From assembly GCF_025753815.1 (NCBI RefSeq), contig NZ_JAOWRF010000370.1, positions 1 through 37,223 on the forward strand: a stretch of 37,223 nt of DNA, read 5' to 3'. A model generated the notes under the pieces. That model made no database searches. It saw only the letters and a program-made list of their open reading frames with translations, and was not told the DNA's origin. Position 1 is the first letter of the stretch, and each line of letters starts with the position of its first letter. Source of the DNA: Plectonema radiosum NIES-515 (GTDB lineage: Bacteria > Cyanobacteriota > Cyanobacteriia > Cyanobacteriales > Nostocaceae). The translations under genes were made by a program, and so were the position numbers. This document shows, one piece after another, positions 43-37,150 of this stretch.

Positions 43-870
43 TTAAACTGAACCTACTTTTTGTAAAGATGCGGTGGGGGTAATTGCTGCTTTCAATTCT
101 TGACAAAGTTTTTCTACAGCTTGGAGTCCTTCGCTGGGACTACCCGTTGCTAATCTTTTGACAAAGGCACTACCGACAATTACGGCATCTGCACCCCATT
201 CCATGACTTGATGTGCTTGTTCTGGGGCAGAAATACCAAAGCCAACACCAATTGGTTTATCGGTGACGCTTCGCAATTCTGTAATCAAATCCTTGACGCG
301 GAGTTGGATTTGAGAGCGGATACCTGTAACGCCTGTTACACTGACGAGGTAGATAAATCCTTGAGATTGACGAGCGATCGCCACAATTCTATCTTGAGAG
401 CTGGTAGGCGCTACAAGCAATATTACCTCAATTCCAAAACTAGCAGCAGTTTGAATTAATTCTTCTGCTTCTTCTAAAGGTAAATCTGGCACCACCAAAC
501 CGCGCACCCCAGCATTCGCAATTTGCGCTAAAAATGACTTAATACCCCGGTATAAAATCGGATTGTAATAAGTAAATAAAATTACTGGCGCTCTCAAGCT
601 GGGACTCAGTGATTGCAACATTTCTAGCACTTGCTCTAATTTTGTTCCTCGTTGCAAAGCACGAGTTGCTGCTGCCTGAATTACCGGACCATCTGCGAGA
701 GGATCGGAGTAAGGAACGCCCAATTCTATAAAGTCTGCACCATTACGATCTAAGATGCGTAAAGCTTCGGCGGTAGTTTCTAAGTTAGGATCGCCAGCTG
801 TAATAAAGGGAATTAAAGCACACTGTTGGCGATTTCTTAAAGTTTGAAAGTGATGAGAAATAGAAGTCAT
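43..870 (-). CDS. trpA: Tryptophan synthase alpha subunit (scytonemin-associated copy)
   Basis: TrpA cleaves indole-3-glycerol phosphate to indole and glyceraldehyde 3-phosphate and works with TrpB in the cytoplasm. From the ATG at 870 the protein is 275 residues, the usual family length. The catalytic motif [16 protein letters not shown] places Glu49 and Asp60 exactly at the family positions, and the phosphate-binding end [10 protein letters not shown] is present. The open frame extends upstream to 933, but those extra 21 residues are encoded by GGGGAATGGGG-type repeats, so the ATG at 870 is preferred. It lies about 100 bp downstream of trpC on the same strand and is the last complete gene before the left edge; trpB is not seen. 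Co-location with scy and ebo genes suggests it supplies tryptophan for scytonemin rather than being the housekeeping copy (inference). Confidence 0.95.
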
Positions 871-871
871 A

Positions 872-973
872 CGGGGAATGGGGAATGGGGAATGGGAAAT
901 GGGGAAAACAACGCTCCAACTATCAATTATCAATTATCAACTACCAACTATCAACTATCAACTAACAACTAAC
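872..973. repeat. Heptameric tandem repeats in trpC-trpA spacer
   Basis: A GGGGAAT run (about 872-904) is followed by AACTATC/AATTATC/AACTAAC 7-bp repeats up to the trpC stop. These heptamers are typical of filamentous cyanobacteria. They fill the entire spacer inside the probable trpE-trpC-trpA operon. Confidence 0.75.
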
Positions 974-1798
974 TTATTCCTTCGCAAACAAATTACGTGT
1001 AGCTTGTTCTACATCGCTTTGTTTAACTAAACATTCTCCCACCAAAACTGCACGTACACCAGCTTCAGCCACTAAGGATAAATCAGCGGGTGTAAATAAT
1101 CCTGATTCGCTGACGACGGTAATATCCAAGGAAAGCAATTCTTGTTGCCGTTGGGCTAAAAGTTGCTGTGTAGTAGCTAAATCAACCGTAAAATTTTCTA
1201 AATTGCGGTTGTTAATTCCTACCAAGCGTGTACCGTCCAGCTTGAGTACGCGATTTAATTCGGCTTCGGTGTGAACTTCTACCAGCGCAGTCATTTCCAA
1301 TTGGTGAATTAGTCGCAAAAAGTCTTGGAGTTCTTCATCACTGAGGATAGCTGCAATTAATAATACAGCATCTGCGCCCGCCGCTCTTGCTGTATAAATT
1401 TGGTAGGGGTCAATGATGAATTCTTTGCAGAGTAGTGGTAATTCTACCTGTGGACGGATGCGACGCAGATTGTCAAAACTGCCTTGAAAGAACTTTTCGT
1501 CTGTGAGGACAGATATACAAGCAGCACCACCGCGTTCGTAAGATTTGGCGATCGCGATCGGGTCAAAGTCTGCTCGAATAATACCACGACTCGGTGATGC
1601 TTTTTTTACCTCGGCAATCAAGCTAGGTTTGTAAGGACTTTGCTGTAAAGCACTGAGGAAATTTCGCACTATTGGTGCATCATTTAACTGATTTTGCACA
1701 GTCGTCAAAGGCATTTCTTGCTGCATTTGAGCAACTTCTTGCTTTTTGTGGCTGACAATTTCTTCGAGAATGTGACGGGGAGGGGCTTGGTTCGTCAT
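974..1798 (-). CDS. trpC: Indole-3-glycerol phosphate synthase (scytonemin-associated copy)
   Basis: TrpC closes the indole ring, converting 1-(2-carboxyphenylamino)-1-deoxyribulose 5-phosphate to indole-3-glycerol phosphate. The 274-residue protein begins [15 protein letters not shown] and carries the TIM-barrel signatures of the family: [10 protein letters not shown] with the catalytic lysine, [30 protein letters not shown] and VVSESG near the C-terminus. The ATG at 1798 opens at the family N-terminus. It sits between trpE and trpA on the same strand, separated from each only by repeat-filled spacers of about 100 bp, so the three are probably one transcription unit. Its immediate product feeds TrpA next door, which fits a dedicated tryptophan branch for scytonemin. 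Confidence 0.95.
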
Positions 1799-1802
1799 GA
1801 TT

Positions 1803-1900
1803 TAGTGGATAGTGGATAGTGGTTAGTGGTTAAGAGTTAGGAGTTAGGAGTTAGGAGTTAGGGCTTTTTCAACCAACAACTAACAACCAACAACCAAGCA
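1803..1900. repeat. Heptameric tandem repeats in trpE-trpC spacer
   Basis: Two repeat blocks fill the spacer: GTGGATA/GTGGTTA then GAGTTAG units (about 1803-1862), and CAACCAA/CAACTAA units (about 1870-1899). The second block is roughly the complement of the first in base character, so the transcript could fold on itself. Confidence 0.75.
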
Positions 1901-1907
1901 CCATCCA

Positions 1908-4109
1908 CTAACTAATAACTACTGATTCTTTCGTTTGCGTGTATTTACGGACGACGTTTTTGATGATGGCTAAACCGATTTCGCCGGTCAAAGTCATGAT
2001 TGACTCTGGGTGAAACTGAACGGCAGCGATCGCAAGTGTTTGATGTTCAATTCCCATAATTACATTGTCTTCGGAAATCGCTGTCACTTTCAATTCTGCT
2101 GGCATTTGTTGCGGTAGAGCAAATAATGAATGATATCTACCCACGACAAAGGATTCCGGTAAGTCTTTGAACATGACAGAATCTGTATCGGTGACGAAAA
2201 CCCGCGAGGATTTACCATGTTGGGGATAGTTGAGAACTCCCAATTCTCCACCAAAAGCTTCTACAATGCCTTGCAGCCCCAGACAAACTCCAAAAATGGG
2301 AATTTGGCGGCGGACACAAGCGGCGACCATCTCCGGCACTCTAAATTTACTTGGTCTACCAGGACCAGGAGAGAAAACAACTAAGTTAGGACGTATTGTA
2401 TCAAAAAGCGATTCATCAAAGCCATGACGGAGTGTGGTGACGCTTGCGCCGGTTTGCCGGATGTAGTTTGCTAGTGTGTGAACAAATGAGTCTTCGTGGT
2501 CAATTAATAAGATGTGCTTACCGGGTTCCACATCGGGAATGCATTTGCTCAATTTTGTAGATGTGCATTCCTCCATTTTCTCGTCTGTTTCTTTGGCTTG
2601 GCGAATTGTTTCAAATAAAACAGCACCTTTGGTGATTGTCTCTTGTTCTTCGGCTTGTGGTATGGAATCGTAAAGAACTGTTGCACCAACTCGCACTTCG
2701 GCAATTGAATCTTTTAAGCGAATTGTTCGCAAAATCAAACCAGTATTCAAATCACCATTAAAGCTGAGATAGCCAACTGCACCACCATACCAACGTCGAG
2801 CGCTACGTTCATGCTGTTCGAGAAATTGCATGGCAGCGCGTTTGGGTGCCCCTGTAACTGTAACTGCCCATGTATGGGAAAGAAATGCATCTAAGGCGTC
2901 AAATTCTTCTCGTAATGTGCCTTCAACGTGATCGACTGTATGAATTAAATGGCTGTACAATTCAATTTGCCGACGCCCAATTACTCTGACGGAACCTGGT
3001 TCACAAATTCGCGATTTGTCGTTGCGATCTACGTCGGTACACATTGTTAACTCAGACTCATCTTTGTGTGAGTTGAGTAACAAAAGAATTTGACCTGCAT
3101 CGTCAATGGCATTTTGTCCCCGCGTAATAGTACCACTAATTGGACAGGTTTCTACGCGCCTACCTTCAACGCGGACAAACATTTCTGGGGATGCACCGAT
3201 GAGATATTCTTCACCCAAATTAAAGACAAATCCGTAGGGACTGGGATTGATTTTTTTTAAGGTTTCAAATAGTTTGCTGGGTGATTGTTCGCAAGATTCA
3301 AAAAAGTTTTGACTGGGAACTACTTCAAATAAATCGCCTCGACGGAAGTAATCGAGTGCTACTTCAACTTGTTTGGCATAATCGCCTCTTTTATGGTCAG
3401 CACTTAATTCTGGTTGAAGACGTTTGCCGCGATAATCTATGGATTCACCTGTGCGAGGAAGATTATTAGTATTTCCATGCGCTGTTTCAAATTCATATTG
3501 AAGACGAAATGCGCGTTGTAGATAGTAGTCAACTACGACTAATTCATCGGGCAAATATAATACTAAATCCCGCTGGTCTTCAGGACGTTCTAAGCGCTGG
3601 GGAATTGGCTCAAATTGAAAAACTAAGTCGTAACCAAATGCACCATAAAGTCCTAAATGCTGGTCTTCTTTACTTGAGAAGGTATGTAGAATTTCTCGGA
3701 CAACTGTAAATGCTGAAGGTTGTTTACTGCGTTCTTCTTCGGCAAATAATTCTTGTGTTTTCTTGACAGTTCCGGTAATATTATCTTGATTTGAAATTAC
3801 TTCTTGAAGTTGTTGTGATTGCGATAAACGCTCTAGCAGTAATGGCAAGAGAATTTTGCCGCGATCGCTTAATGCTTTGATCGTAAAACTATTCTCTCTT
3901 GTAGTTAATTCTAAGGGGGGATTGACAAATCCAATCGCCCATCTTTTATATCTTCCTGGATATTCGTAGCTGCTAGTCAGCAAGCCTCCACGTTGAGAAT
4001 TTAGATAAAATAAAATATCTTCAAGTGCTGTGTCTATGTTGACTTCTGTCATGGAGCGCGAGACACGCACACCCCCAAGTGTTGTATAATTGTGTGAATC
4101 AACAATCAT
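1908..4109 (-). CDS. trpE: Fused anthranilate synthase, TrpE and TrpG domains
   Basis: This enzyme makes anthranilate from chorismate and glutamine, the first step of tryptophan synthesis. The 733-residue protein has an N-terminal chorismate-binding component (about residues 1-500, with PYGFVFNLGEEYLIGASPEMF, CPISGTI, DVDRNDKSR and VTVTGAPKRAA) followed by a glutamine amidotransferase (about 530-725, with FSPGPGRPS, nucleophile Cys609 in GVCLGLQG, and FHPESIMT). The fused TrpEG form is common in cyanobacteria. The ATG at 4109 is chosen because AGAGGA lies 8 bases upstream; an in-frame TTG at 4115 is less likely. It is first of trpE-trpC-trpA and is preceded by a 1-kb spacer, so it may have its own promoter. 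Confidence 0.95.
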   Translation of the reverse strand: MIVDSHNYTTLGGVRVSRSMTEVNIDTALEDILFYLNSQRGGLLTSSYEYPGRYKRWAIGFVNPPLELTTRENSFTIKALSDRGKILLPLLLERLSQSQQLQEVISNQDNITGTVKKTQELFAEEERSKQPSAFTVVREILHTFSSKEDQHLGLYGAFGYDLVFQFEPIPQRLERPEDQRDLVLYLPDELVVVDYYLQRAFRLQYEFETAHGNTNNLPRTGESIDYRGKRLQPELSADHKRGDYAKQVEVALDYFRRGDLFEVVPSQNFFESCEQSPSKLFETLKKINPSPYGFVFNLGEEYLIGASPEMFVRVEGRRVETCPISGTITRGQNAIDDAGQILLLLNSHKDESELTMCTDVDRNDKSRICEPGSVRVIGRRQIELYSHLIHTVDHVEGTLREEFDALDAFLSHTWAVTVTGAPKRAAMQFLEQHERSARRWYGGAVGYLSFNGDLNTGLILRTIRLKDSIAEVRVGATVLYDSIPQAEEQETITKGAVLFETIRQAKETDEKMEECTSTKLSKCIPDVEPGKHILLIDHEDSFVHTLANYIRQTGASVTTLRHGFDESLFDTIRPNLVVFSPGPGRPSKFRVPEMVAACVRRQIPIFGVCLGLQGIVEAFGGELGVLNYPQHGKSSRVFVTDTDSVMFKDLPESFVVGRYHSLFALPQQMPAELKVTAISEDNVIMGIEHQTLAIAAVQFHPESIMTLTGEIGLAIIKNVVRKYTQTKESVVIS

Positions 4110-4384
4110 GAGCAATTCCTCTATAATATTTATTAGTCATTTGTCTCTGGGAAGTTGGGACAAATGACTAATCGATGAAAATGTAATCTAACTTGTCGCC
4201 GAGTTTGTTGCAATTAATGAAGTTTTGTTATTTCTTCTTAATAAATCGTACCAATGTTACGCAATTGAATATATGAAGGATTTATTGCTATAAGTATCAA
4301 TTATTTTGCTTTTTCTATTAATTTATTAAGAGAATTATTGATGAGTAATTTAAAATATTTTACCTCTTCCTCTGGTTATACAGT

Positions 4385-4474
4385 AGACATCTCCAGAAAA
4401 TAATGTAGAGACGCGAAATTTCGCGTCTCTACATTATTTTCTGGTTAACGCATAATTAATTTCCGGAGATGTCT
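4385..4474. repeat. Nested palindromic mini-element with 52-bp perfect palindrome
   Basis: Outer arms AGACATCTCC (4385-4394) and GGAGATGTCT (4465-4474) are exact inverted repeats. Inside them, 4393-4444 is a perfect palindrome of two 26-bp arms centred between 4418 and 4419, containing GTAGAGACG...CGTCTCTAC. It has no coding capacity. The nested layout looks like a non-autonomous mobile or REP-like element. Confidence 0.85.
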
Positions 4475-4477
4475 AAT

Positions 4478-4530
4478 AGACATCTCCGGAAAAGAATGTA
4501 GAGACGATTCTGTGCTACGTCTAATCAAGG
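4478..4530. repeat. Second, degenerate copy of the palindromic element
   Basis: It starts with AGACATCTCCGGAAAAGAATGTAGAGACG three bases after the previous element and continues into an imperfect GCTACGTCTA arm. The right outer arm is not clear, so the end is approximate. Confidence 0.5.
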
Positions 4531-4829
4531 GTTGTGGACAATGCTTAATTTTCAAATAGGTTGTCTAATAAGTTGAGCTAGGTAATAATTGGCAAGAGGG
4601 GTAGGGAAAATGTACCTAAATGCTTGACAAAATGCTTTATTTACCATGTTAACGATAATTTGTGAATTGATAGCGTTTTTAAACGCAGAGGGGCACAGAG
4701 TAAGCGCGGAGGAACGCAGAGTCTTTCTGAATTTATTTCGTTAGGAACTTGTAAAATGGTATTAGTGTAACGACGATAGCTGTGGCTGCTATGGTCGTTA
4801 ATAGTTGCAATAATTGAAAGTGACTATCA

Positions 4830-5067
4830 ATGTATAATGTAGAACTTCCTGCCAACTTGACTGACTTTGCAGAATTGCTTGGTCGAGTTTTGGCAGGAGA
4901 AGAAGTTATTCTTTCCCAAGCTGGTACTCCCGTTGCCCGCATCGTACCCCTAAATCAGCGACCATTACCCCGAATTCCACTCCTTAGACTGTGGTAAGGT
5001 GGTCATTGCCCCCGATTTTAACGAACCCTTACCGGAGGATGTTTTATATCATGTCTCCCCTGATTAA
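4830..5067 (+). pseudogene. Phd/YefM-type antitoxin, frameshifted
   Basis: The first frame runs from the ATG at 4830 to a TAA at 4995-4997 and reads MYNVELPANLTDFAELLGRV, then GEEVILSQAGTPVARIVPL, a typical prevent-host-death antitoxin N-terminus. From about 4987 the next frame continues the expected family C-terminus, DCGKVVIAPDFNEPLPEDVL, ending at 5065-5067. A single extra base near 4985-4987 explains the break. No toxin (PIN or RelE type) follows; eboF comes next on the opposite strand. It may be a decayed orphan antitoxin, although the first 55 residues could still be made and keep most of the DNA-binding region. AT-rich sequence with a TTGACA at 4624 lies upstream. Confidence 0.75.
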
Positions 5068-5098
5068 TTTTAATAAAAACGCCGCAAACGTCGTAGAA

Positions 5099-5125
5099 TA
5101 GAGACGTTCCGGTGGAACGTCTCTA
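5099..5125. repeat. GTAGAGACG-family palindrome
   Basis: Inverted repeat TAGAGACGTTCC / GGAACGTCTCTA with a 3-base loop, between the antitoxin remnant and the eboF stop codon. The two genes converge here, so it could serve as a bidirectional terminator; no T-run follows. Confidence 0.75.
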
Positions 5126-5153
5126 CAATAAATGTAATAAGCCTGTCATGATA

Positions 5154-6554
5154 TTAAATGATTGTAGCGGGGGACGAAGGTGTATCTACAGTTAAATGAC
5201 TGAGGATTAACTGACAAACATCGATCGCTTGTATTGATGAAGAAAGCAGGTGATTTTGTTTGGTAATAAATAATGGACTTTCTGCTATGGAAGGTGGAAT
5301 ACAACCGTGAGAACCTTTTACCAATGAAGCATCTAAGGGAATGACATCCATTAAATAGCGAAACCCAAGTTGTTTTTTCAGCAATTTTGCCGCGATTTTC
5401 AGTTTGGGAAGCTTGATTTGCGGGTCAACAAACAATTCTACGGGGTCGTAACCGGGTTTGCGATGGATGTCTACGGTTCTGGCAAAATCGGGAGCGCGAT
5501 CGCTATCAAGCCAATAATAGTAAGTAAACCATGCATCTGAATTGGCGATCGCTACCAATTCTCCGGATCTGGAATGATCTAAATGGTAAGCTGACTTTTG
5601 GCTATCATCTAAAACCTGAGCTACTCCTGGTGTTTCTTCTAAAAGCGATCGCACTTTGGGAATATAAAAGCGATCGTTAACGTAAACATGAGCAATTTGA
5701 TGATCTGCAACCGCAAATGCTTTACTAGCACCTGGATCTAATAATTCTCGTCCTAATTCTTCCCGCACTGCTAGCAAGCCTTTTTCTCGCAGCATCCGAT
5801 TTAGGTGGATGGGTTGAGATACATCAGTAATTCCATATTCTGACAAAACGATGACTTGAGCGCCGCAATTTTCATAAAACGAAATCAAATCGGCACAAAC
5901 TGCATCAATTTCTTGTAAATCTTTCGCTATTTTGTTGATGTCAGTTCCAAATTTTTGTAAGCAGTAATCGAGATGCGGTAAATAAATCAGTGTCAGCGTT
6001 GGGTTAGAGTGTTCTTCTGACCACTTTGCAGAATTAGCAATCCACTGAGTAGACTTGATCGATGTGTTGGGACCCCAGAAATTGAATAAGGGGAACTGTC
6101 CTAAATCTGTTTGAAGTTGCGATCGCAATTCTGCCGGTTGAGTGTAAATATCCGGAATTTTCCTACCATCAGCAGGATACATCGGTCGAGGAGTAACTGC
6201 GTAATCTACTGACGAGTACATATTGTACCACCAAAACAAATTCGCGCAGGTAAAGTCAGGAAAGAGCGCTTTTGCCATATCCCAGACTTTCGGAGCCTGA
6301 ATTAATTTGTTAGACTGTCGCCAGAACTTAATTTCACACTCATCACGAAAATACCAACCATTCCCAACAATTCCGTGTTCGTTGGGTAATTTCCCTGTAA
6401 GATAAGTAGCCTGTGCTGAACAAGTGACAGCAGGTAACATCGATTCTACCGACGCGATTTTCCCACTAGCCGCCCAACGCGATAAAAAGGGCGTATGCTG
6501 ACATAATAAGCTGGGTGTCAATCCCACCACATTAATAACAACTGTTTTTTGCAT
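5154..6554 (-). CDS. eboF: EboF, alkaline-phosphatase-superfamily (NPP-like) protein
   Basis: A 466-residue protein of the nucleotide pyrophosphatase/phosphodiesterase type, last of the ebo genes here. Ebo proteins are needed in Nostoc punctiforme to get the scytonemin monomer to the periplasm; the chemistry of EboF is unknown. The fold is suggested by the N-terminal strand KTVVINVVGLTP, the nucleophile loop MLPAVTCSAQATYLTG with a candidate Thr/Ser, PNEHGIVGNGWYF, YLPHLDYCLQKFG (a metal-site-like Asp and His), and a late GSHG. Two usual metal ligands look replaced: the first strand lacks the expected Asp, and the usual D-H-G motif reads LSEYGI (about residue 236). There is no signal peptide. 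A 160-bp repeat-bearing spacer separates it from eboE. Confidence 0.88.
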   Translation of the reverse strand: MQKTVVINVVGLTPSLLCQHTPFLSRWAASGKIASVESMLPAVTCSAQATYLTGKLPNEHGIVGNGWYFRDECEIKFWRQSNKLIQAPKVWDMAKALFPDFTCANLFWWYNMYSSVDYAVTPRPMYPADGRKIPDIYTQPAELRSQLQTDLGQFPLFNFWGPNTSIKSTQWIANSAKWSEEHSNPTLTLIYLPHLDYCLQKFGTDINKIAKDLQEIDAVCADLISFYENCGAQVIVLSEYGITDVSQPIHLNRMLREKGLLAVREELGRELLDPGASKAFAVADHQIAHVYVNDRFYIPKVRSLLEETPGVAQVLDDSQKSAYHLDHSRSGELVAIANSDAWFTYYYWLDSDRAPDFARTVDIHRKPGYDPVELFVDPQIKLPKLKIAAKLLKKQLGFRYLMDVIPLDASLVKGSHGCIPPSIAESPLFITKQNHLLSSSIQAIDVCQLILSHLTVDTPSSPATII

Positions 6555-6561
6555 ATATTAT

Positions 6562-6585
6562 GTAGTAAGCACTTCAGTGCTTAAA
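6562..6585. repeat. GTAGTAA...ACTTCAGT hairpin element
   Basis: GTAGTAAGCACTTCAGTGCTTAAA forms an 8-bp stem (TAAGCACT/AGTGCTTA) with a 2-base loop. The same 24 bases recur at 13463-13486 upstream of eboB. Here it lies just upstream of the eboF start. Confidence 0.7.
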
Positions 6586-6642
6586 ATCCTTAAAATAAAC
6601 ATCAAAAAATATCTGAATATCATGCCCCGCAAATTATACATT

Positions 6643-6671
6643 GTAGAGACGTTCCGGCGGAACGTCTCTAC
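6643..6671. repeat. GTAGAGACG-family palindrome
   Basis: Perfect 13-bp arms GTAGAGACGTTCC / GGAACGTCTCTAC around a GGC loop, in the eboE-eboF spacer. Confidence 0.8.
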
Positions 6672-6717
6672 GACGGTTGCGGCATTTTTGTTAATAAACG
6701 CGAACATGATATTATTT

Positions 6718-7938
6718 TTAACCTAACAACGCTCCAGCCAGCATCTTATTTAAAACCCACTCATACTCACGTTGAATCGATGCTGATAAATCTAGTTTCA
6801 TCTCCCCAGGTAATACATCCCATGTATAAGTTTCAATTTCTAAATGATTACAAACCTGATGATTTTGTACCAGTTCCAAAATAGTGGTAATATCGTCTTG
6901 GGTAGATTGCAATAGTTGATAATCGCGGATAAAAATTGGCACATGAAAGTGAATTCGCCATTGAGATGCGGTGGTATTTTCCAAATCTGGTAAAGCGGCT
7001 TCTAAGTCCGAATATTGATTAGAGTTGCTGGTAACTACTTGATGTAAATACGTAGATTCTGCAAAAAGCAGTAACTTTTCTTTGATTTTGCGGCGTTGTT
7101 CGGCATCTTTTGGCACATCTACTTGTAAGGCTGCACTAATCTGAATTTTGCCAATTTGAATTCCTACAGCTTGAAATTGCTTGAAAACTGAAACTGGATT
7201 TTCAAAGGCGATCGCAAAATGGCAAGTATCGTAACATACACGCACGTGCTCTAATAAAAGCGCTTCGGCTGCTTTTTGAGGTATCTCCAATTGTTGTCCT
7301 AAATAAGCACCACCAATAGGTAATAAATGCTTTTGGAAATAATCAATTACCTCGGCAGCATTTTCAATTAATCCATCTGGTTCTGGTTCTAAATTTAAGT
7401 GCAGCAACTTTCCAGTATTAGCGTGGATGCGTACCATTTCCGCTACCACTTCTGCTATGTGCAAAGTAGCGGTGTTGATGACGGATGTTTGGGAATTTTG
7501 ATTTCCTTTAAACCAAGGTTTGTAAGATAACGGTAGTGTAGAAATACTACCTTCCATTTCGGCAGGTAACAATTGGGCGAGAATATTGGTTAGTTGTAAT
7601 GTGTAGTCTAACCGTTCTTGTTTAGACCAATCTGGTGCATAAACTTGGTCTTTTACTACTTGCTGATGAAATCCACCATAAGGAAAGCCATTCAAGGTAA
7701 AGACGTATAAATTATGTTCGACTAACCATGATTTAAACTCTGTTAAGGTGTCTCCTTGTAATAGTTCTTTGGCTGCTATTGCTGCTAAACGCAAGCCAAT
7801 ACCAAAGGGTTTTCTTGGTGCTATTTTTGCTTTTAGTTCTGGAATATATTGCTGTAAGTTACTAAATACTTTGCTCCATTCTTCACCGGGGTGAATGTTG
7901 GTGCAATAGGTTAAGTGAATGTTGTTTTGTATTTTCAT
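6718..7938 (-). CDS. eboE: EboE, sugar-phosphate isomerase/epimerase-like protein
   Basis: A 406-residue TIM-barrel protein of the xylose-isomerase-like superfamily, part of the ebo set linked to export of the scytonemin monomer; its own reaction is unknown. Visible signatures are MKIQNNIHLTYCTNIHPGEE at the N-terminus, FTLNGFPYGGFH, LHLNLEPEPDG with a candidate metal-binding Glu, VCYDTCHFAIAFE with Asp and His, IQISAAL, and WRIHFHVPIF near the C-terminus. These are the strand-end positions that bind metal in this superfamily. The frame opens at 7956, but the ATG at 7938 gives the family N-terminus. It lies between eboD and eboF on the same strand. The 300-bp spacer before eboD is full of hairpins. 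Confidence 0.9.
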   Translation of the reverse strand: MKIQNNIHLTYCTNIHPGEEWSKVFSNLQQYIPELKAKIAPRKPFGIGLRLAAIAAKELLQGDTLTEFKSWLVEHNLYVFTLNGFPYGGFHQQVVKDQVYAPDWSKQERLDYTLQLTNILAQLLPAEMEGSISTLPLSYKPWFKGNQNSQTSVINTATLHIAEVVAEMVRIHANTGKLLHLNLEPEPDGLIENAAEVIDYFQKHLLPIGGAYLGQQLEIPQKAAEALLLEHVRVCYDTCHFAIAFENPVSVFKQFQAVGIQIGKIQISAALQVDVPKDAEQRRKIKEKLLLFAESTYLHQVVTSNSNQYSDLEAALPDLENTTASQWRIHFHVPIFIRDYQLLQSTQDDITTILELVQNHQVCNHLEIETYTWDVLPGEMKLDLSASIQREYEWVLNKMLAGALLG

Positions 7939-7962
7939 GTTGTGTGAGTGTTTCACGCTTCC

Positions 7963-7993
7963 GGAAACGACTGAAGTCGTTACTACGGGTTAA
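7963..7993. repeat. 31-bp direct repeat, copy 1
   Basis: Begins GGAAACGACTGAAGTCGTTA and continues into CTACGGGTTAA; the identical 31 bases recur at 8239-8269. Each copy holds the AACGACT/AGTCGTT stem of the GTAGTAA-type hairpin family, read on the other strand. It lies just upstream of the eboE start. Confidence 0.85.
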
Positions 7994-8015
7994 TACGAAG
8001 TTGGACATTATAACC

Positions 8016-8118
8016 CAATACGGTTCAGTTAAGGATTTTTGGTACTGATTTTTGACCTGTAGAGACGCGAAATTTCGCGTCTCTACACTCGGATTTTAGG
8101 CTTAACTGAACCGTATTG
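8016..8118. repeat. Nested inverted-repeat element in eboD-eboE spacer
   Basis: Outer arms 8016-8033 and 8101-8118 are perfect 18-bp inverted repeats (CAATACGGTTCAGTTAAG). Centred inside is a perfect 30-bp palindrome, 8058-8087, of the GTAGAGACG family with a CGCGAAATTTCGCG core. It has no coding capacity. Confidence 0.85.
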
Positions 8119-8126
8119 CATTATAA

Positions 8127-8192
8127 CCTCACCCCGACAAAGCTGTGCTTTATCTCCCCTCTCCTTATTAAGGAGAGGGGTAGGGGGTGAGG
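8127..8192. repeat. Strong hairpin, possible terminator or processing site
   Basis: CCTCACCCC (8127-8135) pairs with GGGGTGAGG (8184-8192), and within it CCCCTCTCCTT (8156-8166) pairs perfectly with AAGGAGAGGGG (8170-8180) around an ATT loop. It is a widespread cyanobacterial spacer repeat. Because it lies between two co-directional ebo genes, it may attenuate read-through or set mRNA ends (inference). Confidence 0.75.
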
Positions 8193-8238
8193 TGTAAGTC
8201 ATGAAGGCAACTCGGTTGAAGTTAAATTTCACGTTTTT

Positions 8239-8269
8239 GGAAACGACTGAAGTCGTTACTACGGGTTAA
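8239..8269. repeat. 31-bp direct repeat, copy 2, overlapping the eboD stop
   Basis: Identical to 7963-7993. The last bases supply the eboD stop codon (minus-strand TAA at 8268-8266), so the element has landed at, or redefined, the end of eboD. Confidence 0.85.
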
Positions 8270-9528
8270 GTTAAGCTTTCGGATACAGATGAAGTGAGGA
8301 AGGTGGAAATGCTTTTTGTGTGTCTATCTTCTACAACCTCTTGCAATAGGGAGATAGCTCGTTTGTACAAAGATAAATCTGCTTGGTGAACTTCAATTCC
8401 TTGACCAATTCGTTGTAGCAGGGTTAAGGTTAATTCTCCACCCAAATGTTCGCGAAACTCTTGCAAACCGCGAAATAAACTGCGGGAGTGTTCTGGTTGT
8501 GAGAGTTTTTCTGTTAGTTCGGGAACGTATAATACAAAGCCCAATGTAATCAGTGTATTTAGAATGCACTGCCATTCTAACCGGGAAATATTTCCTAACA
8601 AATAGGAGTAAGTTGTATCTAAGGCAATACCGATCGCAACCGCTTCTCCATGACGCAAGTTATAATTTGTCAGTTGTTCTAGTTTGTGCGCTGCCCAATG
8701 TCCGAAATCTAACGGACGAGATGAACCCATTTCAAAGGGATCGCCACTCGTGGCTATATGTTCTAAATGTAACTGAGCGCATCTGTAAATCAACGGTTGC
8801 ATCGCGTCCATGTCTCGGCGACGTAGTGCTTCGCTATTGGTGCGGATGAATTCAAAGAAGTCAGCATCCTTAATTAGGGCGACTTTCACAGCTTCAGCAA
8901 TGCCAGAACGCCAATCGCGATCGCTTAATGTACTCAAAAATGATAAATCATTAACTACTGCGTATGGCGGAGCGAATGTGCCCAGAAAGTTCTTTTTTCC
9001 AAAGGCATTTATTCCGTTTTTCACTCCTACACCAGAATCATTTTGTCCCAAGACTGTCGTAGGAATACGGATAAGTCTAACTCCCCTATGAGCAGTTGCA
9101 GCGGCAAATCCTGCTAAGTCTAACACCGCACCACCGCCAATTGCTATCAGGTAAGAATGCCGACATATCCCCGATGAATCAATCAATTTGTGAATTTGCT
9201 TGACTAAGTTGGGATTGTTTTTAGCAGCTTCTCCACCGGGAACTTTTATCGGTTCGCCTGCGAGGGTTAAGATATCAGCATGATATTTGGTATACAGTGC
9301 TATTTGCCTGAGCAAGCTACGCCGAAATTCTAATAAACCTGCATCTACTACTACTACTATTTTCTTTGGTTTTTGCTCACCATCGCTGGCAATTAATTGA
9401 GCCAGCATCGGGTTTTTTAAGTTAAAAACTTCATCGGTAAAGTGAACGCTATAGTCGAAGCTAACCGAAACATGTTGTTGAATCGGTTGCAAATTTAATG
9501 TAGTTTTTTCTGGGATACTCGCTACCAT
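8266..9528 (-). CDS. eboD: EboD, 3-dehydroquinate synthase-like (sugar phosphate cyclase) protein
   Basis: A 420-residue member of the dehydroquinate synthase superfamily, NAD- and Zn-dependent cyclases of sugar phosphates. In the ebo set its substrate is unproven. The NAD-binding loop IAIGGGAVLDLAGFAAATAHRG and the following RIPTTVLGQNDSGVGVKNG are intact. Glu212 (GIAEAVK), His277 (LDFGHW) and His293 (RHGEAVAIG), counted from the ATG at 9528, align with the three Zn ligands, so it is probably catalytically active. The frame opens further up at a TTG (9567) that overlaps the stop of the broken gene upstream, but the ATG at 9528 is preferred. No separate aroB is visible in the window. The C-terminal stop lies inside a 31-bp repeat. 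Confidence 0.9.
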   Translation of the reverse strand: MVASIPEKTTLNLQPIQQHVSVSFDYSVHFTDEVFNLKNPMLAQLIASDGEQKPKKIVVVVDAGLLEFRRSLLRQIALYTKYHADILTLAGEPIKVPGGEAAKNNPNLVKQIHKLIDSSGICRHSYLIAIGGGAVLDLAGFAAATAHRGVRLIRIPTTVLGQNDSGVGVKNGINAFGKKNFLGTFAPPYAVVNDLSFLSTLSDRDWRSGIAEAVKVALIKDADFFEFIRTNSEALRRRDMDAMQPLIYRCAQLHLEHIATSGDPFEMGSSRPLDFGHWAAHKLEQLTNYNLRHGEAVAIGIALDTTYSYLLGNISRLEWQCILNTLITLGFVLYVPELTEKLSQPEHSRSLFRGLQEFREHLGGELTLTLLQRIGQGIEVHQADLSLYKRAISLLQEVVEDRHTKSISTFLTSSVSESLT

Positions 9529-9563
9529 GTTTTTGGTGATGTTTCTAAAAGTGTTCCGCGATT

Positions 9564-9944
9564 TCAAGCTTGAACAAATACTTCTCTTGAGCGAGAACCG
9601 TCTATGTAAATTGCTTCTACAATATCGGTTTTAATGTTTTCTGGTGCTAATACTAACGAACCGCAGACGCTCAGAGTGGCAGAGAAAGGAAAAAAAGAGA
9701 GTTAGGCTTCTTATACGAGTCTTGATTTGAACGTCTTTCTCTGCGCCTCTGCGCCTCTGCGTGAGAAAAAACTTACAATTGCTGTATAAGCAAGTTGTGC
9801 TTCTCGTAAAGGCAATTCTGATGTTAGTTGCAGCGATAGGCGATCGCGTAATAGGTCGATGACATTTTCATCGGTTTGTTTCAGCTTGTCTGGAATCATA
9901 AATAATCCAAATATACCGAAGTTACAACCGCGAGCAGTCGCCAT
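9564..9944 (-). pseudogene. Split gene remnant between glycosyltransferase and eboD
   Basis: The 5' part (9944 to about 9775) reads MIPDKLKQTDENVIDLLRDR, then SLQLTSELPLREAQLAYTAI. The 3' part (about 9660 to 9564) reads GSLVLAPENIKTDIVEAIYI, then DGSRSREVFVQA and a stop. Both are in the same frame, with in-frame TAA codons and about 115 bp of SRRGAEAQR-type intergenic repeat sequence between them. The simplest reading is a small gene interrupted by a repeat insertion. The LKQTDENVIDLLRDR stretch loosely resembles helix 1 of AroQ-type chorismate mutase, as found at the front of some TyrA proteins, but this is weak and I assign no function. The stop lies immediately upstream of eboD. Confidence 0.5.
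9660..9775. repeat. CGCAGAGGCGCAGAGG-type intergenic repeat
   Basis: On the minus strand it reads TCACGCAGAGGCGCAGAGGC and AGAGAAAG, then after an AT-rich centre CTTTCTCTGCCACTCTGAGC. This is an imperfect inverted repeat of a kind scattered in cyanobacterial genomes; a diverged relative occurs near 4680-4725. It interrupts the remnant described at 9564-9944. Confidence 0.6.
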
Positions 9945-14363: not shown

Positions 14364-14444
14364 GTAGAGACGTTCCACAGGAACGTCTCTACATGATATG
14401 CCACAGGAACGTCTCTACATGATATGCCACAGGAACGTCTCTAC
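14364..14444. repeat. GTAGAGACG palindrome with amplified right arm
   Basis: A 29-bp palindrome (14364-14392; 13-bp arms GTAGAGACGTTCC/GGAACGTCTCTAC, loop ACA) is followed by two exact 26-bp copies of ATGATATGCCACAGGAACGTCTCTAC's pattern (14393-14418, 14419-14444) carrying only the right arm. The left arm could pair with any of three right arms. It lies between scyF and eboA. Confidence 0.85.
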
Positions 14445-18570: not shown

Positions 18571-18594
18571 GTAGAGACGCGAAATTTCGCGTCT
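18571..18594. repeat. GTAGAGACG-family palindrome, right end lost
   Basis: GTAGAGACGCGAAATTTCGCGTCT, a 20-bp perfect palindrome core (18575-18594) whose last arm bases (CTAC) are missing. It is in the scyC-scyD spacer and followed by CTAACTC-type heptamers to 18640. Confidence 0.75.
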
Positions 18595-18639
18595 GTTAGG
18601 AATTCTTTATTCCTAACTATCAACTCCTAACTCCTCACT

Positions 18640-26824: not shown

Positions 26825-26944
26825 TGGAAAGGGATAAGGGGGACAAGGGGGACAAGGGGGATAACGGGGACAAGGGGGACGACTTGGAAAAATTTCTTCC
26901 TTGTCTCCCCCCTCTCCCTTGTCTTTCTTCTCTTCCCCCTCTCC
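26825..26944. repeat. G-rich then C-rich tandem repeats
   Basis: GGGGGACAA-type 9-bp units (about 26837-26881) are followed by CCCCCTCTCCCTTGTCT-type units (about 26905-26944). The two blocks are partly complementary, so the strand could form a long hairpin between the DUF4058 and DUF3082 genes. Confidence 0.7.
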
Positions 26945-27724
26945 CTAATTCCCTAATCCGCGTATAATTGTATCAGCCCATGCTTTATCTTCTGCCTTTA
27001 GTGGTGGTATTGGCTCTCGATTATAATCAATAGTTAAATAATATCTGGCACGGGCATATATTCGATTCAATAAAGGTTGCAAATCTAAAATCACTTTTCT
27101 CTCTTCTGACTGCAAAGGTAACACGAAAGTAGGAATCTTTTCGCGAACGCTAAAGCCGTATAATTTAGCTTGAGGGCGAATTTCACTTTGACTAACAACT
27201 ATGCGATAATCTGTTGCTGGCACTTCTCCTAATAAAGACATTTGCCGACCATTTCTGAGTAAATCAATTTCTACTAAATGCGTCAAACTAGCTAAAACTT
27301 GTTTTCGCTTTCGTTCATAAGCTTTTCTTCCTTCACCTGCTCGTTTGTTTTTAGGAGAGAGAATTTCAATTGTTGTGACAACAAATCCCGTGTCTATCTC
27401 TCGAATTTCTAAGTAACTTTCTGTGACATTTTCTGGCATGGGTATTGTCACCGTTACCCCATCTGTGGTAGATACTTGTGTAGCTGTTGATGAATGCTCT
27501 TTCTGATTTGATTGTTGAGAAAAAATAGTCACATCAGGGATACCTACCAAAATGGAATCCTCTTCATCACTTAAATAAGTACGTTGCTCAATTGCAACTC
27601 GATATTGAGGAGGTATGTTTGGCTCAATTTCGTCGGCTATGACTGCGATTAAGCGATGATGTACTTCTGACCAAAATATGGGATTTTCCAGATAAGGATT
27701 CATCCCTGGAAATGGAGAATTCAT
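26945..27724 (-). CDS. DUF4058 family protein
   Basis: A 259-residue protein of the DUF4058 family, common and multi-copy in filamentous cyanobacteria, function unknown. The family signature opens it: MNSPFPGMNPYLENPIFWSE, followed by VHHRLIAVIADEI, YLEIREI, TTIEILSPKNKRAGEGRKAY and LLRNGRQMSL. The core with conserved Glu and Lys residues (EILSPKNK) resembles PD-(D/E)XK-type folds by pattern, but that is a weak inference. It is complete, and 14 bp separate it from ispE upstream, so the two are probably co-transcribed. Confidence 0.85.
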   Translation of the reverse strand: MNSPFPGMNPYLENPIFWSEVHHRLIAVIADEIEPNIPPQYRVAIEQRTYLSDEEDSILVGIPDVTIFSQQSNQKEHSSTATQVSTTDGVTVTIPMPENVTESYLEIREIDTGFVVTTIEILSPKNKRAGEGRKAYERKRKQVLASLTHLVEIDLLRNGRQMSLLGEVPATDYRIVVSQSEIRPQAKLYGFSVREKIPTFVLPLQSEERKVILDLQPLLNRIYARARYYLTIDYNREPIPPLKAEDKAWADTIIRGLGN

Positions 27725-30026: not shown

Positions 30027-30185
30027 ATGACAGTCATTATTGTAAACTTCAACTTCATCATTACATTCACAGACGACCAGTTTTATCAACTATGTCGGAA
30101 AAACCCGGATGTTAAATTTGAACGCAATACCAATTTTAGAGACGTTCCACGCTCTACGTCTCTAGCACAGTTAGGGCAATTTTGA
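30027..30185 (+). pseudogene. Truncated Uma2-family protein
   Basis: A 52-codon frame reads MTVIIVNFNFIITFTDDQFY, then QLCRKNPDVKFERNTNF, the characteristic N-terminus of Uma2 (DUF820) nuclease-like proteins, normally about 190 residues. After Phe37 the frame enters a GTAGAGACG-family palindrome (30137-30164), coding RDVPRSTSLAQLGQF and a TGA at 30183. The rest of the Uma2 domain, including its catalytic residues, is absent, and the kinase gene ends next door at 30194. The gene is therefore a remnant with the palindrome at the break point. Confidence 0.7.
30137..30164. repeat. GTAGAGACG-family palindrome at the Uma2 break
   Basis: TAGAGACGTTCCACGCTCTACGTCTCTA: outer arms TAGAGACG/CGTCTCTA pair, the centre is diverged. 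Confidence 0.65.
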
Positions 30186-33683: not shown

Positions 33684-33713
33684 GTAGGGACGTAGCATGT
33701 GCTACGTCCCTAC
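33684..33713. repeat. GTAGGGACG-type palindrome
   Basis: GTAGGGACGTAGCA / TGCTACGTCCCTAC arms of 14 bp; a variant in which the outer arm has changed on both sides (GGG/CCC). Followed by AGACATCTCCAGAAA at 33717, the outer motif of the element at 4385. Confidence 0.8.
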
Positions 33714-33748
33714 ATTAGACATCTCCAGAAATGAACTATGCGTTGCCC

Positions 33749-33794
33749 AAAACCCTTGTAGAGACGTTAAATTTAACGTCTCTACAAGGGTTTT
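33749..33794. repeat. 46-bp perfect palindrome
   Basis: Two exact 23-bp arms, AAAACCCTTGTAGAGACGTT plus AAA and its complement, centred between 33771 and 33772. It is in the GERMN lipoprotein to small-protein spacer and has no coding capacity. Confidence 0.9.
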
Positions 33795-34101
33795 CACGAC
33801 GTTTGTCTATTCATTTTCACGACGTTTGTATAATAAAGAAAATAGAAAATTCCTTTAAATATTTATATTTGTTCATAATGCCACAACGGGGGAAACCCTG
33901 GCAACATAGTGGCTCCTCTGTACTGCCAATCTTCAAGATAGATAGACAGGTGAACCAAATAGTTCTACAATCTGACTGATTGTGGTAATCTTACTCATTG
34001 CCCAATCAACCCAAACATAGTAAAAAATTTTGGTGATTCGGCTCAATTGCGCCGATCGCTCTATTAAGATAAAGACGTCTTTAGTAGAGGGCGACAAACA
34101 A
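33795..34101. other. Spacer upstream of the small membrane protein
   Basis: It begins with two copies of TTTTCACGACGTTTGT (33791-33806 and about 33815-33830), the end of the palindromic element. The rest is unassigned; the promoter of the 40-residue gene at 34102 should lie in its right part. I see no RNA gene. Confidence 0.4.
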
Positions 34102-34224
34102 ATGGATGTAAAGTTGATTTTAGTTGGATTAACAGTTATTTTTACCATTTCGTGCCTATTTTTTGGCACGAAAAATGGCTTTTATGATTCAGACAACTAC
34201 CACGGCAATGGTTCGGCACATTAG
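34102..34224 (+). CDS. 40-residue single-pass membrane protein (possible NDH-1 small subunit)
   Basis: MDVKLILVGLTVIFTISCLF opens with a single membrane helix and is followed by a short soluble tail, FGTKNGFYDSDNYHGNGSAH. The ATG is preceded by AGAGGG about 10 bases upstream. The shape, one helix at the very N-terminus with a conserved-looking Gly/Asp/Tyr/His tail, fits small photosynthetic complex subunits, and I suspect NdhP of the cyanobacterial NDH-1 complex from recalled family appearance; this is not certain. FTISC could also be read as a lipobox, but the hydrophobic stretch continues past the Cys, which favours a membrane helix. A palindromic element starts 1 base after the stop region. 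Confidence 0.6.
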   Translation: MDVKLILVGLTVIFTISCLFFGTKNGFYDSDNYHGNGSAH

Positions 34225-34351
34225 ACATCTCCATAAAAGACGTAGAGACGTAGCTAGCTTACGTCTCTACAAGGATTTTGGGCAACGCATAACAACGCTC
34301 TCCCCCGTCTTTAGATACGGGGTTTATCCCGATTAATTTTTGGAAATGTCT
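34223..34351. repeat. Palindromic element downstream of the small protein
   Basis: Starts AGACATCTCC (34223-34232), has the imperfect palindrome GTAGAGACGTAGCT/AGCTTACGTCTCTAC (34242-34270), then AAGGATTTTGGGCAACGCAT, a CCCCGT/ACGGGG hairpin (34303-34322), and ends near GGAAATGTCT. It is the same layout as 4385-4474. The hairpin could terminate the small gene. Confidence 0.7.
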
Positions 34352-34404
34352 ATTAAAAAACGCCCAATTCTGTTAGTTTGATGGGTTGTCATTATCCACG
34401 TTTT

Positions 34405-36619: not shown

Positions 36620-37150
36620 GTACTGCTTCTGCCTTTTTAAACGACGTAGTTAAATCTGTCAACATCTGGGTTTTATCCCAATATATAGTACCCTGAAAAA
36701 GCTAGTTTCATGGTTGGTGAACAAGTCCATATCTTGATCCAAACCATTATATTGGATGATTGGATCGTATACAGCTTGATGACTGCACCAGTTCAACTCA
36801 ATCTCTTTGGGAGTAAGATTAGAAATGCCTACTAATATAGTAGAGACGAGATTGTGCAACGTCTGTACTTATTTCGGGAGTTGTCCTGACAAGTGTGAGT
36901 ATTTTCTGGTGAATACTTTCTACCATTATGTAATAAATAATACTCCAAAACAAGTGGTAAGTGCGGTTGTTTAAGTTGCCTACTTGTAATCATTGGCATT
37001 TTTGGGAAGTCTTTACCCCTATGTATTTGATCTTAACTCATTCTCCTGTCACCTTAATGGTTTTAAACAACAACACCCCAAAAGTTCTTCACTGTGTCTT
37101 TATGTCTCTGGGTGATACAAAGGAAGGCAGTCACGAAAGAGGACTTTCTT
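36620..37150. other. Region without a convincing gene
   Basis: More than 500 bp with low-quality open frames only. A degenerate GTAGAGACG-family palindrome (TAGTAGAGACGAG...CGTCTGTAC, about 36838-36868) is present. The minus-strand frame 36659-36859 contains protein-like stretches (LTPKEIELNWCSHQAVYDPI) and may be a gene fragment, but I recognise no family. Confidence 0.4.

Follow-up and report, generated by a model that had tools for sequence, protein, structure and literature searches.

The small dispersed repeats SDR1–8 of Nostoc punctiforme and its relatives among the heterocystous cyanobacteria, reportedly described by Elhai et al. in 2008, are said to be very short (21–27 nt), highly repeated and hairpin-forming, with compensatory changes, and to occur in minitransposons and heptamer repeats. 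By that description they are the best-fitting known kind for the palindrome family considered here, which may already have been described among them, and together with MITEs they are the closest known kinds overall. Compared by description and not by letters, the likeness lies in a hairpin with compensatory change, which here is found in the inner stem only, and the lengths are 21–27 nt against 28–30 here. We know of no case in that work of a core being replaced in place at orthologous sites. A literature search found GTAGAGACG, the left arm of the palindrome, in the text of no cyanobacterial paper among those searched, and CGTCTCTAC, its right arm, combined with ‘cyanobacteri’ led to one paper, on a CAST structure (PMC9527255); within the limits of the searches made, in-place core replacement in such palindromes was not met in the literature.

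Bacterial MITEs, for example the cyanobacterial Nezha named in the accessible part of PMC3733652, resemble the elements that enclose the palindrome in their size of 90–130 bp, their inverted ends, their target duplications and their lack of coding capacity; unlike ordinary MITEs, those described here share one palindrome between families with unrelated ends, and the blocks of one family are shuffled from copy to copy. The GTAG/CGTC-tagged REPs and the REPINs, in the accessible parts of Di Nocera 2013 (PMC3733652) and Bertels and Rainey 2011 (PMC3116915), are likewise short palindromes, present in hundreds of copies, mostly extragenic and found in Nostocales, whereas here the tag is paired, no association with a transposase was seen and what moves is a MITE, with duplication of its target. 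Rickettsia palindromic elements, as far as the same part of PMC3733652 describes them, are alike in forming in-frame palindromes within protein genes (15 of 327 copies here), but they belong to a different phylum, copies here lie mostly outside genes, and the likeness is one of description, not of sequence. A further parallel is the correction of quasipalindromes by template switching, which in the accessible parts of two papers is reported to yield multibase compensatory changes in RNA genes (PMC8794818) and the homogenisation of arms and inversion of spacers in yeast coding genes (PMC8604942). The changes described below are similar in that both arms change in one event, loops change and coding DNA is affected too; the events in those two sources lie within one inverted repeat, whereas the present family is dispersed and its copies have cores in common as well.

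The window, that is, the whole stretch of 37,223 nucleotides from Plectonema radiosum NIES-515 that was analysed, contains a palindrome of the form GTAGAGACG-core-CGTCTCTAC, 28–30 bp in length, with outer arms of 9 nt and a replaceable centre of 10–12 nt (Table 1). In what follows, G000 is the source genome, G001–G004 are relatives, L-numbers are loci and W is the window. Six exact copies occur in the window (none in 100 shuffles) and, when copies were collected genome-wide as an earlier note on this DNA had proposed, 515 in the 6.59 Mb of G000, the reversed-pattern control giving none. If up to one mismatch per arm is allowed, the window has ten two-armed copies (4405, 5098, 6643, 8059, 14364, 30136, 33684, 33758, 34242 and 36840), none of them inside ORFs of at least 100 aa; the right arm is decayed in two further copies (4498 and 18571), and 14410 and 14436 are right halves alone. 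The ‘at least eleven’ copies of the earlier note is a fair count if decayed copies are included; two-armed copies number ten. Its statement that each core stays self-complementary does not hold: the four innermost pairs match in seven of the ten, and 30136, 34242 and 36840 are not fully paired inside and fold weakly as DNA strands (the three values being −9.1, −7.2 and −4.4 kcal/mol). Folded alone as DNA strands, 4405, 6643 and 33684 give stems of 12–13 bp at about −13 kcal/mol, with shuffle means of about −3. The change of the outer arm on both sides at 33684 (GTAGGGACG/CGTCCCTAC) is exactly as had been noted, while the placing of several copies within AGACATCTCC outer arms is borne out for 4385–4474 and 34223–34351 (one mismatch on the right), but at 4478 and 33717 only the left form is present.

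Table 1. Palindromes, enclosing elements and target duplications in the window
Feature	Position	Strand	Remarks
MITE1 copy, AGACATCTCC...GGAGATGTCT	4385..4474	.	holds palindrome 4405-4432, core CGAAATTTCG; left internal block recurs inverted at right, giving perfect 52-bp palindrome 4393-4444; 3-bp flanks unequal (AGT, AAT); as DNA strand 24-bp stem, −26.9 kcal/mol (shuffle mean −3.2)
Second MITE1-like copy	4478..4574 (right end approximate)	.	palindrome GTAGAGACG ATTCTGTGCTA CGTCTAATC; decayed right arm CGTCTAATC also present in other MITE1 copies
Palindrome ATAGAGACG TTCCGGTGGAA CGTCTCTAC	5098..5126	.	
Element with CATGATA-type ends	6618..6711 (limits approximate, by eye)	.	palindrome 6643-6671, core TTCCGGCGGAA; palindrome common to L117 and L170, not found in L116
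Target-site duplication CATTATAACC	8006..8015	+	second copy 8119-8128
MITE2, ends CAATACGGTTCAGTTAAG/CTTAACTGAACCGTATTG	8016..8118	.	palindrome 8059-8086, core CGAAATTTCG
Palindrome 14364-14392 (core TTCCACAGGAA) and two tandem right halves, 26-bp period	14364..14444	.	
Palindrome, decayed right arm, core CGAAATTTCG	18571..18598	.	
Palindrome, non-self-complementary core TTCCACGCTCTA, end mismatch in both arms	30136..30165	.	
Palindrome, both outer arms altered (GTAGGGACG/CGTCCCTAC), core TAGCATGTGCTA	33684..33713	.	
MITE1-like copy, dissimilar right end	33717..33808 (limits by eye)	.	palindrome 33758-33785, core TTAAATTTAA; AAGGGTTTT inverted on either side
MITE1 copy	34223..34351	.	palindrome 34242-34270, core TAGCTAGCTTA; 3-bp ATT duplication at 34220-34222 and 34352-34354
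Palindrome GTAGAGACG AGATTGTGCAA CGTCTGTAC	36840..36868	.	orthologues in four relatives, core different in two of the four

At least one exact copy is present in 53 of 120 sampled genomes of the order, of at least 90% completeness, representing 37 of 69 genera, and positive genomes have from 1 to 503 copies with cores of 6–14 nt, the control again giving none. The listed places of this survey all come from five genomes of another family (f30), in which the same arms enclose other cores, mainly TTTCATGAAA and TTGCATGCAA. One of the survey genomes, G055, has imperfect inner stems in seven of its 12 listed copies, as if these were decaying; most of those listed for G033, G072 and G106 are not like this. 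Phage records gave no match, and matches among plasmid records were in Nostoc only (2 and 6 records). Of the 327 palindromes at the loci of G000 and G001, the 15 that lie inside ORFs of at least 150 aa are, with one exception, read in one of two frames, giving VET..-type or RD..-type peptides.

Many copies of the palindrome lie inside non-autonomous elements of about 90–130 bp. The terminal inverted repeats of MITE1 are AGACATCTCC/GGAGATGTCT, and 22 of its 28 standard-size copies have an equal 3-bp flank (13 AAT, 8 ATT and 1 ACT); those of MITE2 are CAATACGGTT/AACCGTATTG, with CAATACGGTTCAGTTAAG and its inverse at the ends, and of the four copies found, three have a 10-bp duplication. The element at 34223–34351 is absent from G001, G002, G003 and G004, where its target is single copy, that at 8016–8118 is cleanly missing from L170, which has a single CATTATAACC at the site, and the MITE1 of L058 is missing from G001. 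Because these clean empty sites remove the entire element, the mobile unit in the clean cases is the whole mini-transposon. Elements of about 90–130 bp insert whole at new sites, palindrome included, with target duplications of 3 bp (MITE1, mostly AAT or ATT) or 10 bp (MITE2). With inverted ends, target duplication and empty sites all found, the enclosing elements are MITEs in each of these respects. A full-length insertion sequence with the same ends, which would be their autonomous partner, was looked for in about 2.0 Mb from G000 and G001, and no convincing one was found there. MITEs with unrelated ends are shown to share one palindromic module.

MITE1 elements are heavily shuffled mosaics, since 31 of 32 copies are different combinations of blocks, the subterminal blocks often differing between left and right, and the left and right tips are unassociated. 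Pairing of the two tips was rejected, their assortment being random (3.25 mismatches against a null of 3.07). MITE1 and MITE2 are two well-defined cases among several repeat contexts in which the palindrome occurs. When 622 outward flanks of copies in G000 and G001 were grouped by single-linkage clustering, one large, loosely chained cluster (AAGGGTTT...) resulted, besides 28 smaller ones with three or more members; some of these are palindrome arrays, and each element contributes its two sides as separate counts.

It had been suggested that the arms of the palindrome change together. For the inner stem this stands. Copies whose arms each carry no more than one mismatch were taken from 1.23 Mb of G000 and 0.80 Mb of G001 and de-duplicated; the four innermost pairs are all complementary in 90 of the 177 copies retained for G000 and in 115 of the 135 for G001. 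The excess over the 24.5 and 44.1 that result when these halves are assorted at random is inflated by common descent. It fails for the outer arms, in which changes are mostly one-sided. Identical two-sided changes account for three of 83 non-consensus arm pairs in G000 and four of 93 in G001, and the commonest variant, GTAAAGACG, stands opposite an unchanged GTAGAGACG in 19 of 177 and 46 of 135 copies; the double change at 33684 is therefore an exception. A few core types make up the bulk of the copies, and both orientations of the loop relative to a flank anchor are present, in uneven counts. Inverted extension of the flanks, striking in two window copies, was discarded as a general signature. 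Measured against re-pairing of flanks as the null, extensions of at least 5 nt as inverted copies occur in 2 of 93 cases in G000 (null mean 1.64, p 0.49) and 2 of 43 in G001 (null 0.32, p 0.04, other cut-offs not being significant).

Since common descent was to be avoided, the same site was compared across relatives. At ten sites, in 26 comparisons that all include G000 and are not independent, flanks differ at 341 of 4274 positions (8.0%; 336 of 4179 without the G001 row at L045:5869, which represents a neighbouring palindrome) and arms at 28 of 468 (6.0%; this row included). The cores are separated by an edit distance of at least 3 in 13 of the 26 comparisons, at six of the ten sites, with 0.25 edits per core base overall, whereas at the flank rate only 4–7% of cores of 10–12 nt (about 5%) would be expected to have three or more substitutions. 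At shared sites the centre of 10–12 nt is often replaced as a block, while the extent of change in the 9-nt arms and in the flanks does not exceed that of ordinary DNA. Eight of the sites (L033:8867, L033:10751, L033:12279, L038:19411, L043:7732, L043:15206, W 6643 and W 36840) come from 33 G000 sites with an orthologous interval, to which L071:11091 and L045:5869 are added; for the latter, the correct G001 core, TTCCGGCGGAA, was used for edit distances. Omitted were sites without a palindrome in any relative, those with arrays or unlike flanks (L067:14908, L069:13723, L069:18563, L071:8321, L071:8437, L071:12233, L034:17813, L043:15237 and L043:15309) and L043:19350, a chance pattern in a gene; relatives without the palindrome at a used site are excluded from the 26. 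No block change is seen at L071:11091, W 6643, L033:12279 and L043:15206.

The like arms at L043:7732 enclose a different core in each of four genomes (TTCCGGACCGAA, TTCCGCCGGAA, TAAGGAGTGGAA and TTCCAATGGAA), and in the fifth, G003, the palindrome is absent. One relative's core at this site has a single inner pair and about half of the G000 cores are incompletely paired, so that pairing is not strictly restored. At L033:8867 the cores of G000, G001 and G002 are all different, but the odd arm CGTCTGTAC is retained in each of the three; in G003 nothing but a heptamer-like array is present there. In the smc gene, CGATATATCG is matched by CAATTAATTG in two relatives and by CGATTTATCG in G001, the last being a possible intermediate; CAATTAATTG was found at one other place, in G001 (L241), a genome different from those with this core at smc. 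This gene (ORF 9621–13223 of L033) has two in-frame palindromes, at L033:10751 and L033:12279, recognisable in G001–G004, which flank the hinge, one on each side (aa 377 and aa 886; hinge 551–666). In the hpnB-like gene, TTGCATGCAA corresponds to CGACATGTCG, the change going along with units of the adjoining tandem repeat, and neither core was found elsewhere in the sampled DNA of G000 or G001. The gene (L210:75–1487 and L038:19411) encodes an HpnB-like glycosyltransferase in which an in-frame palindrome precedes an 8-residue tandem repeat of KPDVASLQ type; this repeat is built from the right half of the palindrome and has more units in G001 than in G000. The earlier note had named gene conversion from a few master copies, without any covariation, as the outcome that would tell against its reading, and the data partly show such conversion: where the core was replaced, at six sites, three have cores most of which are present at other places too in the sampled DNA.

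The earlier note had offered selection and a copying mechanism as alternatives. The evidence favours copying, because cores change as blocks while arms and flanks change little, and because the palindrome-bearing elements are insertions with empty sites. We give an even chance to the palindrome being a module of several MITE families, moved by whole elements, the centre of which is renewed by copying at the tip of a hairpin or cruciform. The tip is implicated because block change is confined to the centre and the arms are largely kept. Replacement would start there during replication, and the polymerase would switch strand within the palindrome, so that one arm is copied onto the other and both sides are altered in one step; alternatively, it might use the common arms to copy a core from elsewhere among the several hundred copies. 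Many cores would then stay self-complementary without selection on the hairpin itself, and half-palindrome arrays and hybrid cores could be by-products of the same slippage. Intramolecular template switching could explain paired change without a donor, as for the hpnB-like cores, which occur nowhere else in the G000 and G001 sample and for which ectopic copying is therefore unproven. Copying from other members is suggested at some sites by cores that are frequent elsewhere, such as TTCCGGCGGAA, with 11 occurrences in the G000 sample and 65 in that of G001, both orientations counted. Tandem half-palindromes (window 14364–14444, L038, L043, L071 and L215) fit slippage at the palindrome centre. 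In G000 an array of 26-bp half-palindrome units (TGTAGAGACGTTCCGGCATTTCCACA) lies upstream at L043 ~7570–7732, and is shorter or missing in relatives. Against broad template switching, flanks beyond the arms are not symmetrised above chance in G000. More tentatively, the palindrome centre could be a self-renewing hot spot of exchange, at which strand switching or breakage, triggered by the hairpin, would supply fresh self-complementary cores, the source being either the copy's own arm or any other copy; the symmetry of the family and its common cores would then be due to mutation bias alone, with no selection on structure. Covariation of paired bases is often taken as proof of a selected structure; the block replacement described here makes a mutational alternative testable.

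The palindrome might instead be a very small mobile element in the SDR sense, which inserts alone, also into MITEs, heptamer repeats and older copies, changes of core being re-insertions. We consider this unlikely, although it accommodates several observations: 11 pairings of flank clusters are seen at least three times in one genome, some with a common side, 28 of 171 G000 copies have both 60-bp flanks unique in the 1.23 Mb sampled, the palindrome occurs in frame in ORFs, and L033:8867 has its three cores where G003 has only an array. That site is, however, the sole palindrome-only candidate found, and its array is messy; the clean empty sites remove the whole element and not the palindrome, and the ‘empty arm’ form GTAGAGACG(CG)TCTCTAC was not found in 1.23 Mb. 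Selection for the hairpin, as an RNA or DNA structure or as a protein site, with ordinary compensatory mutation altering both arms, would account for inner-stem pairing above random assortment and for the low number of copies inside ORFs (9 of 184 in G000 and 6 of 143 in G001, where ORFs cover about 70%). It would also suit the five listed f30 genomes, which keep the arms and use other self-complementary cores (such as TTTCATGAAA, TTGCATGCAA and TTGTATACAA), and the resemblance of CGATTTATCG at the smc site of G001 to a one-sided intermediate. We regard it as improbable; core changes are blocks of 3–10 edits, outer-arm changes such as GTAAAGACG opposite GTAGAGACG go uncompensated at the frequencies given above, the inner stems of G055 are imperfect in most of its listed copies, and in the window no match to an Rfam family attains the gathering score (0 matches).

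Descent alone, by which amplification of a small number of master elements, each with its own palindrome, would have been followed by no further event at the palindrome once inserted, fits the predominance of a few core types and the flank types that are common to copies. It is contradicted at six of the ten orthologous sites, where the core differs and arms and flanks are largely kept, including CGTCTGTAC in three species at L033:8867, unless all six are independent insertions at the same base, and we hold it to be very improbable. Least probable of all, to the point of being barely credible, is an identity of the copies with REP sequences mobilised by transposases of the RAYT (Y1 tyrosine) type, a link that had been raised in the earlier note and is not upheld. 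GTAG and CGTC motifs are present, G000 has 18 Y1_Tnp matches, and GTAG-tagged REPs are reported in Anabaena and Nostoc in the accessible part of PMC3733652. In exact copies, however, GTAG pairs with CTAC at both ends, leaving no unpaired tag, and half-sites are not enriched near the Y1 genes, with 12 in the 18 loci (55 kb) against 15.3 expected (0.276 per kb). The insertions described here also carry target duplications, which, to our knowledge, IS200/IS605-type elements do not make. Copying at the tip of the hairpin, within MITEs that move as whole elements, is the reading that we prefer to these.

The window itself is a trp/ebo-type biosynthetic region, encoding TrpA, TrpC, TrpE, EboE and a 3-dehydroquinate-synthase-like protein; the nearest named relatives of EboE are those of Hassallia byssoidea (92% protein identity) and Spirirestis rafaelensis (90%). 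The genes trpA, trpC and trpE adjoin eboE and the 3-dehydroquinate-synthase-like gene at 43–9567, in what looks like a cluster of the scytonemin/ebo type. Another high-copy repeat, a stretch of about 120 bp at 26825–26954, has dozens of similar places in G000 and G002.
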